A DNA stretch of 64,000 nt from Candidatus Vesicomyosocius okutanii (GTDB lineage: Bacteria; Pseudomonadota; Gammaproteobacteria; PS1; Pseudothioglobaceae): contig NC_009465.1 in NCBI RefSeq assembly GCF_000010405.1, positions 496,001 to 560,000 on the forward strand, in the 5' to 3' direction. A program made the position numbers and the translations under genes. Below the pieces are notes generated by a model. It worked only from the letters and a program-made list of their open reading frames with translations, ran no database searches and was not told where the DNA came from. Every line of letters begins with the position of its first letter. The stretch's first letter is position 1. Below, piece after piece: positions 3,510-36,094 of this stretch.

Positions 3510-3542
3510 GAGCATTATTATGTAGTCCTACTAGGAGTATCA

Positions 3543-5819
3543 ATGAATCAAGATATTAAAGTCACTAAGCGTAATGGACAACAAGAGTCTATTGATATGG
3601 AAAAAATTCATCGCGTTGTACATTGGGCTTCACAAGACTTAAAAAGTGTTAGTGTTAGCCAAGTTGAAATCAATGCACAGTTAGCATTTTTTGATGGTAT
3701 TAAGACGGAAGATATTCATGAAACAATTATTAAATCAGCAGCAGATTTAATTTCAACAGACATACCAGATTATCAATATTTAGCGGCACGTTTATCCATT
3801 TTTCATTTACGTAAAAAAGCGTTTAAATCCTTTACCCCGCCACCATTTTTTGAGCACATTAAAAAAATCACAGATTTAGGTATTTATGACAAAGATATTC
3901 TTAATAAATATCTCAAAGAGGAAATTGAAATATTAGGTTCTTATATTGATCATTGGCGTGATATGAATTTTTCCTATGTAGCTGTTAAACAACTGGAAGG
4001 CAAATACTTAGTTCAAAATCGTGTTACTGGCGAAATTTATGAATCTCCACAATTTCTTTATATGTTAGTGGGTATGTGCTTATTTCAAGAATATGAAGTG
4101 AGTAAACGCATGAATACTGTGAAGCGCTTCTATGATGCAGTAAGTTTGTTTAAAATCTCCCTTCCTACACCTATTATGGCTGGGGTTAGAACACCTACAC
4201 GCCAATTTTCGTCTTGTGTATTAATTGAAACAGATGATGATTTAGATTCTATTAGTGCCACTGCTGGGGTTATTGTTAAATATATATCTCAGCGTGCTGG
4301 GATCGGCATTAATGGTGGTAAAATTCGTGCAATTGGTAGCCCTATTCGCGGGGGTGAGGCAACACATACAGGTTGTATTCCTTTTTATAAACATTTCCAT
4401 ACCGCTGTTAAATCTTGCTCACAGGGTGGCGTGCGGGGGGGTGCAGCTACTTTATTTTACCCTTTGTGGCATTTAGAAGTTGAAAATTTATTAGTTCTTA
4501 AAAACAACACAGGAACGGACGAAAATCGTATTCGTCATTTGGACTATGGAGTGCAGTTTAACGGCTTAATGTATCAACGTTTTTTAAAAGATGGCGATAT
4601 TACTTTATTTTCACCACATGATACCCCTGATTTGTACAATGCTTTTTTTGCTGATCAAGAAGAATTTAAACGTTTGTATCATAAATATGAACAAAATACT
4701 TTAATTAGAAAACACACTATTAAAGCCAGAGAATTATTTTCTAAGTTTATACAAGAACGTGCTAATACAGGCCGTATTTATTTACAAAATGTTGATCACT
4801 GCAATACCCATAGTGCATTTAATGCCAAACAAGCACCTATTAAACAATCCAACCTTTGTATGGAAATTACTCTACCAACTAAACCCTTATATTCAATTCA
4901 AGATGAACAAGGCGAGATAGCGCTTTGTACATTATCAGCAGTTAACCTTGGTGCATTAGATTCTTTAAATGAGTTAGAAACGTTAACTGATATCATTGTA
5001 CGCTCATTGGATTGTTTACTTGATTATCAAGATTACCCAATTAAAGCAGCTGAACTTGCTAGTAAAAATCGTCGAACACTCGGTATTGGCGTAACTAATC
5101 TTGCTTATTATTTAGCCAAAAATGGTGCAAAATATTCTGATGGATCAGGTAATCAACTCATTCATACAACCTTTGAGGCATTACAGTATTATTCATTAAA
5201 GGCTTCAAATACGTTAGCAAAAGAATTAGGTGCTTGTCCATTATTTTTTCAAACCCAATATTCACAAGGTATTATGCCTATTGATTCTTATAAAAAAGAT
5301 ATTGATGCGTTTTGTGATTTCAAATTAAAATTTGATTGGGATACACTACGTCAGGATATTACATCTAAAGGTCTTAGAAACTCAACCTTAACAGCACTTA
5401 TGCCATGTGAAAGCTCGTCACAAATCTCTAATTCAACTAATGGGATTGAACCACCTAGAGGGTTTGTATCTATTAAACAGTCTAAAGATGGTATCTTAAA
5501 GCAAATAGTACCTGATTATGAATTATTAAAAAACCAGTATGAGCTACTCTGGGATATTAAAGATAATGAAGGTTATCTACAACTTTGTGGGATTATGCAA
5601 AAATTTGTAGATCAGTCTATTTCTACTAACACACATTACGACCCTTCACAGTTTGAGGGTAATAAAGTGCCAATTAAATTGTTTTTAATGGATTTGTTGA
5701 AAGCATATAAATATGGCATTAAAACGCTTTATTATCATACAACTCGTGATGGTGGCAGCAATGATATGTCAGAAAAAGAAGATGATAACAACTGTACAAA
5801 CGGTATTTGTAAACTATAA
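3543..5819 (+). CDS. nrdA: Ribonucleoside-diphosphate reductase class Ia, alpha subunit
   Basis: Large catalytic subunit that reduces ribonucleoside diphosphates to deoxy forms. It has 758 residues (E. coli has 761), with an N-terminal ATP-cone allosteric domain. Active-site residues are present: the cysteine in RQFSSCVLIE, the thiyl-radical cysteine and its Asn/Glu partners in SNLCMEI, the cysteine in ALCTLSAVN, the radical-transfer tyrosine pair in KTLYYHTTRDGG, and the C-terminal redox pair in CTNGICKL. An AGGAG ribosome-binding site lies about 6 bases before the ATG. First gene of nrdA-nrdB-ferredoxin; nrdB follows after 15 bases. Confidence 0.98.
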   Translation: MNQDIKVTKRNGQQESIDMEKIHRVVHWASQDLKSVSVSQVEINAQLAFFDGIKTEDIHETIIKSAADLISTDIPDYQYLAARLSIFHLRKKAFKSFTPPPFFEHIKKITDLGIYDKDILNKYLKEEIEILGSYIDHWRDMNFSYVAVKQLEGKYLVQNRVTGEIYESPQFLYMLVGMCLFQEYEVSKRMNTVKRFYDAVSLFKISLPTPIMAGVRTPTRQFSSCVLIETDDDLDSISATAGVIVKYISQRAGIGINGGKIRAIGSPIRGGEATHTGCIPFYKHFHTAVKSCSQGGVRGGAATLFYPLWHLEVENLLVLKNNTGTDENRIRHLDYGVQFNGLMYQRFLKDGDITLFSPHDTPDLYNAFFADQEEFKRLYHKYEQNTLIRKHTIKARELFSKFIQERANTGRIYLQNVDHCNTHSAFNAKQAPIKQSNLCMEITLPTKPLYSIQDEQGEIALCTLSAVNLGALDSLNELETLTDIIVRSLDCLLDYQDYPIKAAELASKNRRTLGIGVTNLAYYLAKNGAKYSDGSGNQLIHTTFEALQYYSLKASNTLAKELGACPLFFQTQYSQGIMPIDSYKKDIDAFCDFKLKFDWDTLRQDITSKGLRNSTLTALMPCESSSQISNSTNGIEPPRGFVSIKQSKDGILKQIVPDYELLKNQYELLWDIKDNEGYLQLCGIMQKFVDQSISTNTHYDPSQFEGNKVPIKLFLMDLLKAYKYGIKTLYYHTTRDGGSNDMSEKEDDNNCTNGICKL

Positions 5820-34640: not shown

Positions 34641-34750
34641 ATGTTATTTGATGTAACTGGTCTAGGTGACACCAATCAAGAAAAATAATAAATTTTGATG
34701 AAGAAATTTATCAAGAAAAAGTTATTATGGATAAAAATATAAATGCGTAA
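34641..34750 (+). pseudogene. Unidentified ORF fragments at the left end of the phage relic
   Basis: ATG at 34641 opens MLFDVTGLGDTNQEK before a stop; a second frame from 34697 reads DEEIYQEKVIMDKNINA and stops at 34748-34750, overlapping the J-like start. Together they could be the end of one broken gene. I recognise no homologue, and chance cannot be ruled out. Confidence 0.3.
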
Positions 34751-34872
34751 GCTGTTTAAAATGAAGTTAAGGCGTTCTAAACGTCTCTTTGCTAAATATG
34801 CTAAAAAAACACATCGTAAGAATTCAACTTTTGAATTCTCACACTTGTCGAGGGGGTGGTATAAAACTTTAA
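34743..34872 (+). pseudogene. J-like basic DNA-packaging protein remnant (frameshifted)
   Basis: The frame from ATG 34743 starts MRKLFKMKLRRSKRLFAKYA and continues KKTHRKN, a strongly basic sequence. After a frame change the other frame reads CRGGGIKL then stop at 34870-34872. Small arginine/lysine-rich proteins ending in a MRGGIRL-like motif sit just upstream of VP1 in gokushoviruses, so the fit is good. Without the shift the frame runs to 34910 as an unrelated tail. Confidence 0.6.
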
Positions 34873-34909
34873 CGATATATTCTGTTCCAGATATGATTGA
34901 TCATTTTTA

Positions 34910-35451
34910 ATGATAGGTATTATTCTTTCTGGTCTACTCGGGGTTCTACTGTTGGTGGATAATGTCCATCAGGCTTCTAGAAATCGTAGTTTTCAATCTT
35001 ATATGTCTGATAATGCTCATCAACGAGAGGTTAATGACCTTCGTAAAGCTGGTCTAAATCCTATACTATCTTCTACTAGAGGTGCTGGTGCTTCTACTCC
35101 TTCTGGGAGCTATTACTACTGTAGATAGTCCTACTAATTTTGTTGTCTCTGCTAATGAAAATAGTACTGAAATGCTACTACTGTCTAGTCAAAGCTGATC
35201 TAGTCGGTTCTCAAACTAAAAAAGACAAATACCGAAGTGACTTACTCCAACAACAAATACCTGAAGCCATAGCTAATAGTGCAATGTGGTCAAGTCAATA
35301 AGCAAAAACAATGAAATAAGTATAATATGGCATAGGTCTGGTTGGAGGGCTTGTTCCTAGTATTGGTCTAATTATGAATCGAGTACGTCCTAAACCTAAA
35401 AAACCTGTTCTTGATAAATATTTTAAAAAATATCGTAATAACTTTAAATAA
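34910..35451 (+). pseudogene. Microvirus DNA pilot protein VP2 remnant
   Basis: VP2 (the H-like minor spike/pilot protein) escorts viral DNA into the host. The first frame (34910-35128, 72 residues) has a hydrophobic N terminus and then the hallmark FQSYMSDNAHQREVNDL followed by RKAGLNPILSS and GAGASTPSGS, which closely follows gokushovirus VP2. The gene then shifts to frame 35109-35198 (TTVDSPTNFVVSANENS), then to 35188-35301 (QTKKDKYRSDLLQQQIPEAI), and after three in-frame stops resumes as YGIGLVGGLVPSIG to a stop at 35449-35451. So the full-length gene is present but broken. Confidence 0.87.
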
Positions 35452-35500
35452 ACAGTCGCTCTGCTCTTTAATATAATTCCCCCAAAAAAAGCTGGGAGGG

Positions 35501-35548
35501 TTTGAAAAAATTTCAACCTCGCCCCTAATGGGGTAGAGTTTTTTCAAA
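35501..35548 (+). terminator. Nested hairpin inside the phage relic
   Basis: Outer arms TTTGAAAAAA (35501-35510) and TTTTTTCAAA (35539-35548) are perfect reverse complements. Inside, CTC/GAG and CCCC-TAAT-GGGG (35522-35533) make a GC stem followed by TAGAG and six T. This reads as an intrinsic terminator. It lies between VP2 and VP3, where an intergenic signal of the phage would be expected. Confidence 0.6.
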
Positions 35549-35573
35549 TCTCTATATGCTTTAGCATACTATC

Positions 35574-35916
35574 ATGTATACTTCTTTCATGAAAAATACA
35601 AAAATAATCTACTCAATGAAGTTGTTTCGTTAATAAAACAAAGTTTTAAAGATGAGTGTGATATTAACAATATACTCTCTCGTTATGATTTATCTGGATC
35701 TTTACCAGATCCTAATCCTAAACAACCTCAATATAGCGACTTTACTGATGTGAACTTTCAAGGTTCTGCTAATTTAGTCGCTGAAATGCAAATCTACTTG
35801 GGAGAATTTGCCTTTGGCATCTCGTGAAAAATATGATTCTTTTGATGATAGAGAAATCTGAAGAGAAACCCGCTTCTGACGATGATGTTGGAAGCAAAGC
35901 CCAGTTATATACTTGA
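35574..35916 (+). pseudogene. Microvirus internal scaffolding protein VP3 remnant
   Basis: VP3 guides capsid assembly. The clearest piece, in a frame that is open from 35561 to 35827, reads KQSFKDECDINNILSRYDLS then GSLPDPNPKQPQYSDFTDV; KQSFKDECDINNI followed by PQY(G/S)DF is the signature of gokushovirus VP3. An ATG at 35574 in another frame may be the original start. After a shift near 35802 it reads LPLASREKYDSFDD, matching the family's LPxxxRxxF region, and after another shift KPASDDDVGSKAQ, an acidic C-terminal end, with stop TGA at 35914-35916. Confidence 0.87.
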
Positions 35917-36094
35917 TGTCCATTGTCAAGAAAACCAACAAAAATATCAACCAATATTATCCTAAAGAAAGAAAAACTTTACAACTATTACCTTTAATGA
36001 GATTGACTATCTACTTAGTTCTAAATATTTAAGAATTTATCATGAATATTTACAAAAACCAAAAGACGTTAGACATACCTACTTACAGTTATAG
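35916..36094 (+). pseudogene. Unidentified ORF coupled to VP3, frameshifted
   Basis: The VP3 stop overlaps an ATG as TGATG (35914-35918), a coupling typical of compact phages. This frame reads MSIVKKTNKNINQYYPKERK and soon becomes meaningless. Another frame, open from 35966 to 36094, reads FNEIDYLLSSKYLRIYHEYL and ends seven bases before rseP. They may be one broken phage gene. I do not recognise it. Confidence 0.35.

Follow-up and report, generated by a model that had tools for sequence, protein, structure and literature searches.

A decayed gokushovirus in a clam symbiont chromosome ends at its predicted replication nick, suggesting a transposon-like insertion

Introduction

Integration of microviruses into bacterial chromosomes has so far been explained by the hijacking of host XerC/XerD at dif. 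The enterogokushovirus prophages, EC6098 and its relatives in E. coli, are chromosomal gokushoviruses that carry no integrase gene; they are bounded by dif, need the host XerC/XerD (PMC7062461), and keep their origin intact and internal. The Bacteroidetes microvirus proviruses (BMV, Alpavirinae) belong to another subfamily, are likewise integrated without an integrase, and use dif-like attachment sites (PMC3091885). HUH enzymes cut single-stranded DNA, stay attached to its 5' end, and are able to pass this end on to a different 3'-OH; the IS91-family and Helitron transposons, which encode a two-tyrosine HUH enzyme, transpose in this way and insert adjoining a short target (PMC4778049). In AAV integration at AAVS1, the viral Rep acts on the viral nick site and on a similar host site (PMC2944168).

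The genome of Candidatus Vesicomyosocius okutanii comprises 1.02 Mb with 31.6% G+C, and the okutanii and magnifica symbiont genomes have been described as being without phage and mobile elements (PMC3202245). Here, we analyzed a window of 64,000 nucleotides of this chromosome (NC_009465.1, positions 496,001 to 560,000; 31.9% G+C), which is a single contig of 1,022,154 bp (hereafter G000). The window contains a relic that resembles the free Gokushovirinae (origin GACCAGT...CTTG^ATG...ACTGGTC; for example, IMG/VR L114 and L236) in the sequences of VP2, VP3, J, and the VP1 tail, in the order VP1-VP2-VP3-origin-J(-VP4), which is kept except for a deletion, and in the origin loop with a TGACACC box. 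It differs from them in lacking VP4, VP5, and most of VP1, in its broken frames, and in being chromosomal. With the enterogokushovirus prophages it shares the chromosomal location, the lack of an integrase gene, and the type of origin hairpin, whereas its origin is split and forms its ends, and its host has no Xer. Unlike IS91 and Helitrons, it derives from a virion-forming phage, whose replication protein would have served as the transposase. The AAV parallel is more distant, as AAV is an unrelated animal parvovirus with a linear genome. No earlier report of such relics or of ends at the origin nick was found in the literature searched, whose coverage excluded most subscription journals.

Results and discussion

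A gokushovirus relic lies between dapF and rseP

A preliminary description of this DNA had proposed a gokushovirus relic in a reduced bivalve-symbiont genome and suggested comparing the dapF-rseP interval in relatives. The sister genomes G004, G005, and G008 have the dapF-rseP locus without the insert, and alignment to these empty sites delimits an insert of 1,265 bp at positions 34651-35915. The features of the locus, all on the + strand, are as follows.

34648..34654, +, left junction TTG/ATGT (host/phage), placed by empty-site alignment with G005 (TTGTTTG/ATGTCC), G004, and G008
34651..34673, +, 3' half of the putative rolling-circle origin, ATGTAACTGGTCTAGGTGACACC, its first base directly following the predicted nick
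34743..34872, +, small, basic, J/VP8-like DNA-binding protein, frameshifted ahead of the RGGGIKL-stop end
about 34872..34910, +, remnant of the VP1 (major capsid) C-terminus, YSVPDMIDHF-stop; intact phages read RPMPLYSVPGMIDHF
34910..35451, +, VP2 (DNA pilot protein), N-terminal part clear, the rest frameshifted and broken
35589..35916, +, VP3 (internal scaffolding protein), interrupted by frameshifts; the stop codon overlaps the origin half
35899..35915, +, 5' half of the putative rolling-circle origin, GCCCAGTTATATACTTG, its last base directly preceding the predicted nick
35916..36094, +, host DNA, remnant of a GBBH-like_N (DUF971) gene, from empty-site alignment and an intact ORF in G006

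Phage pieces with VP2 and VP3 signatures, clustered on one strand, had been reported from the letters alone, and profile searches bore this out. The VP2 segment at 34910-35128 matches phrog_5158 of PHROG at E 5.2e-24, together with many families named "pilot protein for DNA ejection", and is 70-74% identical to gokushovirus VP2 over 46-50 aa; its C-terminal part was placed by position alone (best match E 0.04). The VP3 segment (about 35615-35826; G000:531615-531791 in the genome-wide profile scan) matches PF09675 Chlamy_scaf at E 3.8e-16 and 59.9 bits (cut-off 25), as well as phrog_1642 (E 8.6e-16). A profile check of the J family, also suggested beforehand, yielded a match at 34743, although a weaker one (phrog_10695, E 4.8e-4); this protein is 68% identical over 22 aa to one in IMG/VR L244, and its position and ending are those of the L114 J. 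Only the final ~12 codons of VP1 are left, and the PF02305 (Phage_F) profile has no match anywhere in the genome. Nor was an intact capsid or Rep found elsewhere in G000.

From left to right, the insert reads half-origin, J, VP1 tail, VP2, VP3, and the other half-origin. The circular order in the free phage L114 is VP1-VP2-VP3-origin-J-VP4-VP5, and VP1 is followed by VP2 in L114 and L237 as in the relic. Immediately 5' of the VP1 remnant, VP4, VP5, and nearly all of VP1 have been deleted. The relic thus reads as an L114-type circle that was opened at the origin and from which VP4 through most of VP1 was deleted, which makes it a remnant and not a phage.

Given the profile matches, the gene order, the phage origin, and the empty sites in relatives, it is practically certain from these comparisons that the insert is a decayed gokushovirus. 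That a decayed cellular gene or intergenic sequence resembles a phage by chance has a negligible probability: two independent profile families match at E <1e-15, the order is that of phages, origin halves stand at both ends, and the sites are empty in sister genomes. One part of the interval first described (34641-36094) does fit such an origin, since its last 180 bp are a cellular pseudogene; the phage attribution holds for 34651-35915. Retention of the relic for a function, such as immunity to related phages, is very unlikely. Circular EC6098 DNA does give superinfection immunity in E. coli (PMC7062461), but here J, VP2, and VP3 are frameshifted or broken, VP4 is gone, and the sister genomes lack the insert.

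The host DNA beside the insert belongs to a DUF971 gene, which is intact adjoining dapF in G006 (117-aa ORF, PF06155 E 2.1e-22). Assignments of 35916-36094 as a VP3 tail or as a separate ORF (ORF5) were therefore rejected. The gene is broken in G000 and also in G004, which has no insert at this locus, so the phage probably landed in a gene that was already decaying. A further copy of the segment was seen at G000:C1:639509-640060 (L020, L025), near hisS, where an intact DUF971/GBBH-like gene adjoins a decayed 5' part of dapF. It represents a duplicated dapF-DUF971 segment from each copy of which a different gene has been lost.

The gokushovirus origin and its predicted nick

Exact copies of the sequence TAACTGGTCTAGNTGACACC are found in 95 IMG/VR stretches, nearly all of them 4.1-4.9 kb long, the size of a microvirus. 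Aligned stretches have the form GACCAGT-(loop)-ACTTGATG-TAACTGGTC-TAG-GTGACACC. The origin was then surveyed in 79 gokushoviruses gathered by VP4 similarity and not by the origin motif. A CTTGA hairpin is present in 50 of the 79; its loop is CTTG^AT in 49 of these 50, and the stem sequence covaries on both sides. In 46/50 the hairpin precedes the PCGxC motif of VP4 by 215-500 nt, and in 43/50 it is followed downstream by TGACACC or a similar sequence. In a slightly larger set, a [C/T]TTGA hairpin was found in 66/94 real genomes and 7/94 shuffled ones. phiX174 reads CAACTTG^ATATT at its annotated origin (position 4306). On the basis of the conservation of the gokushovirus hairpin and the match to the phiX174 nick, we conclude that the hairpin with loop CTTG^ATG is the likely rolling-circle origin, with the nick predicted between G and A.

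A CRISPR array of Natronospirillum operosum (NZ_SRMF01000001.1, about 3536-3569; L251) holds a spacer, tacttgatgtaactggtctaggtgacaccaacac, that matches the gokushovirus origin exactly and is flanked by the repeats GTCGCGCCCCACGCGGGCGCGCGGATAGAAAC. It points to gokushovirus exposure of this species and to an immune target under strong constraint.

Two independent relics end at the nick

In the relic of the window, the origin hairpin is split at the predicted nick and its halves form both ends. The chromosome reads TTATTTG/ATGTAACTGG...CCCAGTTATATACTTG/ATGTCCATTG, and the insert-free G005 reads TTGTTTG/ATGTCCATTG (beginning ATGTCC). The 5' origin half at 35899..35915 corresponds to GACCAGTTATATACTTG^ATG of L098, L146, and similar phages.

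A second relic was found in G004 at a different locus, between two genes that, from the encoded proteins, we take to be rpsF and tsaB; its remnants are J, pieces of VP4, and the VP3 end. It reads GTTACTTG/ATGTAACTGGGC...GACCAGTTACCTATTTG/ATTTTACTT, whereas at the empty locus G005 has TTACTTG/GTTTTACTT and G000 has TTACCTTGG. Its ends are likewise origin halves split at CTTG^A. Each relic is absent from the locus of the other, and the two insertions are therefore independent. Only these two relics are clean at both ends. As judged from the empty loci, insertion occurred 3' of TTTG in the window and 3' of CTTG in G004.

When the two halves are placed end to end, the origin hairpin forms again, and neither junction alone folds in this way; compared with shuffles, refolding is 4.8 s.d. 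better for the G004 pair and only 2 s.d. better for the window pair. If a circle of ~4.4 kb is assumed, random opening within the 7-bp ambiguity has a probability of about 0.002 per event and ~3e-6 for both. It is very likely, from the position of these ends, that the phage genome was opened at its replication nick.

Host recombination background

G000, G004, G005, and G008 group as a single clade (support 100/100), which we infer to be "clade I" of PMC3202245. In a profile search, none of the four contains a PF00589 tyrosine recombinase (XerC/XerD), whereas matches were obtained in each of the 14 control genomes and in the eight remaining members of the genus. Loss of recA in the clade has been reported (PMC3202245). 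Since each relic is private to one genome, parsimony places the insertions after the Xer and recA losses. The losses could also post-date the insertions, but a single older loss is simpler. If they are older, the Xer and RecA routes were unavailable, which leaves a phage enzyme or illegitimate joining.

Integration by XerC/XerD at a dif-like site is the known route of gokushoviruses (PMC7062461) and of Bacteroidetes microviruses (PMC3091885), and by eye the motif at the left end is weakly dif-like, matching 8/11 positions in a XerD arm. For the present relic we consider this route highly improbable. Apart from the missing recombinases, the degenerate dif-like site of the host lies at G000:C1:707385-707410 (707 kb), ~177 kb from the insert (531 kb). 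Moreover, the left-end motif is the conserved gokushovirus origin, present in ~95 free phages and intact inside dif-flanked prophages, and it was rejected as a dif or att site. The host dif-like site and its orthologues are degenerate in the clade that has lost tyrosine recombinases, with TTCTCATAATCACCACTATGTTTAAT compared with TTCGCATAATTTATATTATGTTAAAT in relatives.

Proposed mechanism of insertion

We propose that a unit-length gokushovirus genome, opened at the nick, was inserted by VP4 in the manner of IS91/Helitron transposition and then decayed; we give this reading a probability of roughly 0.66. A linear phage molecule opened at CTTG^ATG would have become part of the chromosome of a clam symbiont whose genome was already reduced. 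VP4, the two-tyrosine HUH endonuclease, would cut the phage origin and remain on the 5' ATG... end. It would then pass this end to the 3' side of a TTTG or CTTG in the host, which equals or approaches its own recognition tetranucleotide, so that a host (C/T)TTG^A would serve as a surrogate origin. The 3' ...CTTG end of the phage would subsequently be joined to the opposite side. Decay would later have removed VP4, VP5, and the greater part of VP1 and shifted the reading frames of the remainder. That VP4 was the catalyst, and in which order and on which strand the ends were joined, are inferred. IS91 inserts adjoining CTTG or GTTC. In both of our insertions, the element ends at the predicted HUH nick, placed by comparison with phiX174, and adjoins a short (T/C)TTG target.

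Two observations count against a role of VP4: the gene is deleted from the window relic, and 7 bp of the left junction (34648..34654) are common to the host target and the phage nick site, which also fits microhomology joining by the host. The main rival accordingly holds that the phage was linearized at its origin, by VP4 or by breakage, and that RecA-independent host repair captured the ends through the TTGATGT microhomology; the origin would account for the phage end, and not for the choice of target or the joining. The TTGATGT shared at the window junction fits this course, as does the absence of RecA from the host (PMC3202245), and partners would be common, with TTGAT occurring about every 314 bp on one strand. 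In G004, however, host and phage have only about ACTTG in common, with perhaps one or two further bases, and still the break is at the same phosphodiester position, and host joining is less natural there (about five to seven bp shared) than in the window. Both relics are also intact to the base at both ends, which end joining usually trims. We therefore regard capture by host repair as possible but rather unlikely, and VP4-driven, transposon-like insertion, argued by analogy with IS91 and Helitrons, as the likelier of the two. That VP4, acting as a rolling-circle transposase, offers gokushoviruses a third route, into chromosomes 3' of CTTG-like sites and next to a purely lytic life and the hijacking of Xer/dif, seems on the whole probable, though with a little less assurance than the proposal for this relic.

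If this proposal is true, ssDNA phages that are supposed to be strictly lytic can leave insertions without an integrase, even where the host lacks RecA and Xer, and the relics point to a self-sufficient route in place of hijacked XerC/XerD. The origin hairpin split at CTTG^ATG is a simple signature for which any genome can be screened. The relics further show that ssDNA phages reached reduced intracellular clam symbionts after genome shrinkage, in genomes described as phage-free, and phage exposure of these symbionts is now directly testable. The preliminary view of the lineage as sheltered from phages needs qualifying: gokushoviruses are known to infect its free-living SUP05 relatives (Roux 2014, PMC4164917), and two more symbiont genomes of the same genus contain relics.

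Other relics and integrated gokushoviruses

The second of these genomes, G010, belongs to a lineage that retains tyrosine recombinases and carries two further gokushovirus remnants. One (L023, G010:C1:869344-870926) is a VP2'-VP3-origin'-J-VP4 fragment that is younger, with VP3 open. Its VP4 is broken by two stops (TAA) but present (phrog_942, E 4.6e-119), and the HUH (RPHYH) and two-tyrosine (YVTPY) motifs are readable. The fragment reads ...CAA/ATGTAACTGG directly after VP3, lacks the 5' arm of the origin, and has outer ends that do not coincide with the nick. The other (L022) is a ~100-bp fragment whose left edge is uncertain. The two remnants neither support nor break the model of insertion at the nick.

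A scan of GTDB for the insertion pattern gave only one match, a CRISPR spacer, and the VP4 profile run over 369 genomes of the class found no further insertion. Near matches of the origin motif in G080 and G007 were discarded, as the surrounding sequence has no phage genes. Long IMG/VR contigs were considered as proviruses; those examined were mostly terminal repeats or two-phage chimeras, and only L237 was provirus-like.

As controls, nine integrated gokushoviruses were compared, and the hairpin is intact and internal in all of them. Six are E. coli enterogokushovirus chromosomes with a near-perfect dif on one side and a diverged dif-like copy on the other. L237 adjoins a host xerC-like gene and has 18-bp flanking repeats, a plasmid prophage of Pusillibacter (L300) lies beside xerC, and a Citrobacter copy (L299) is flanked by IS elements. 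Integrated gokushoviruses therefore do not, as a rule, have a split origin. The Pusillibacter prophage (Pusillibacter faecalis plasmid pMM59_01, 233-238 kb) looks complete and is carried by a 504-kb replicon in a species of Clostridia. The Citrobacter copy, on an IncF plasmid of Citrobacter sp. TSA-1, lies between two identical ISNCY transposase copies.
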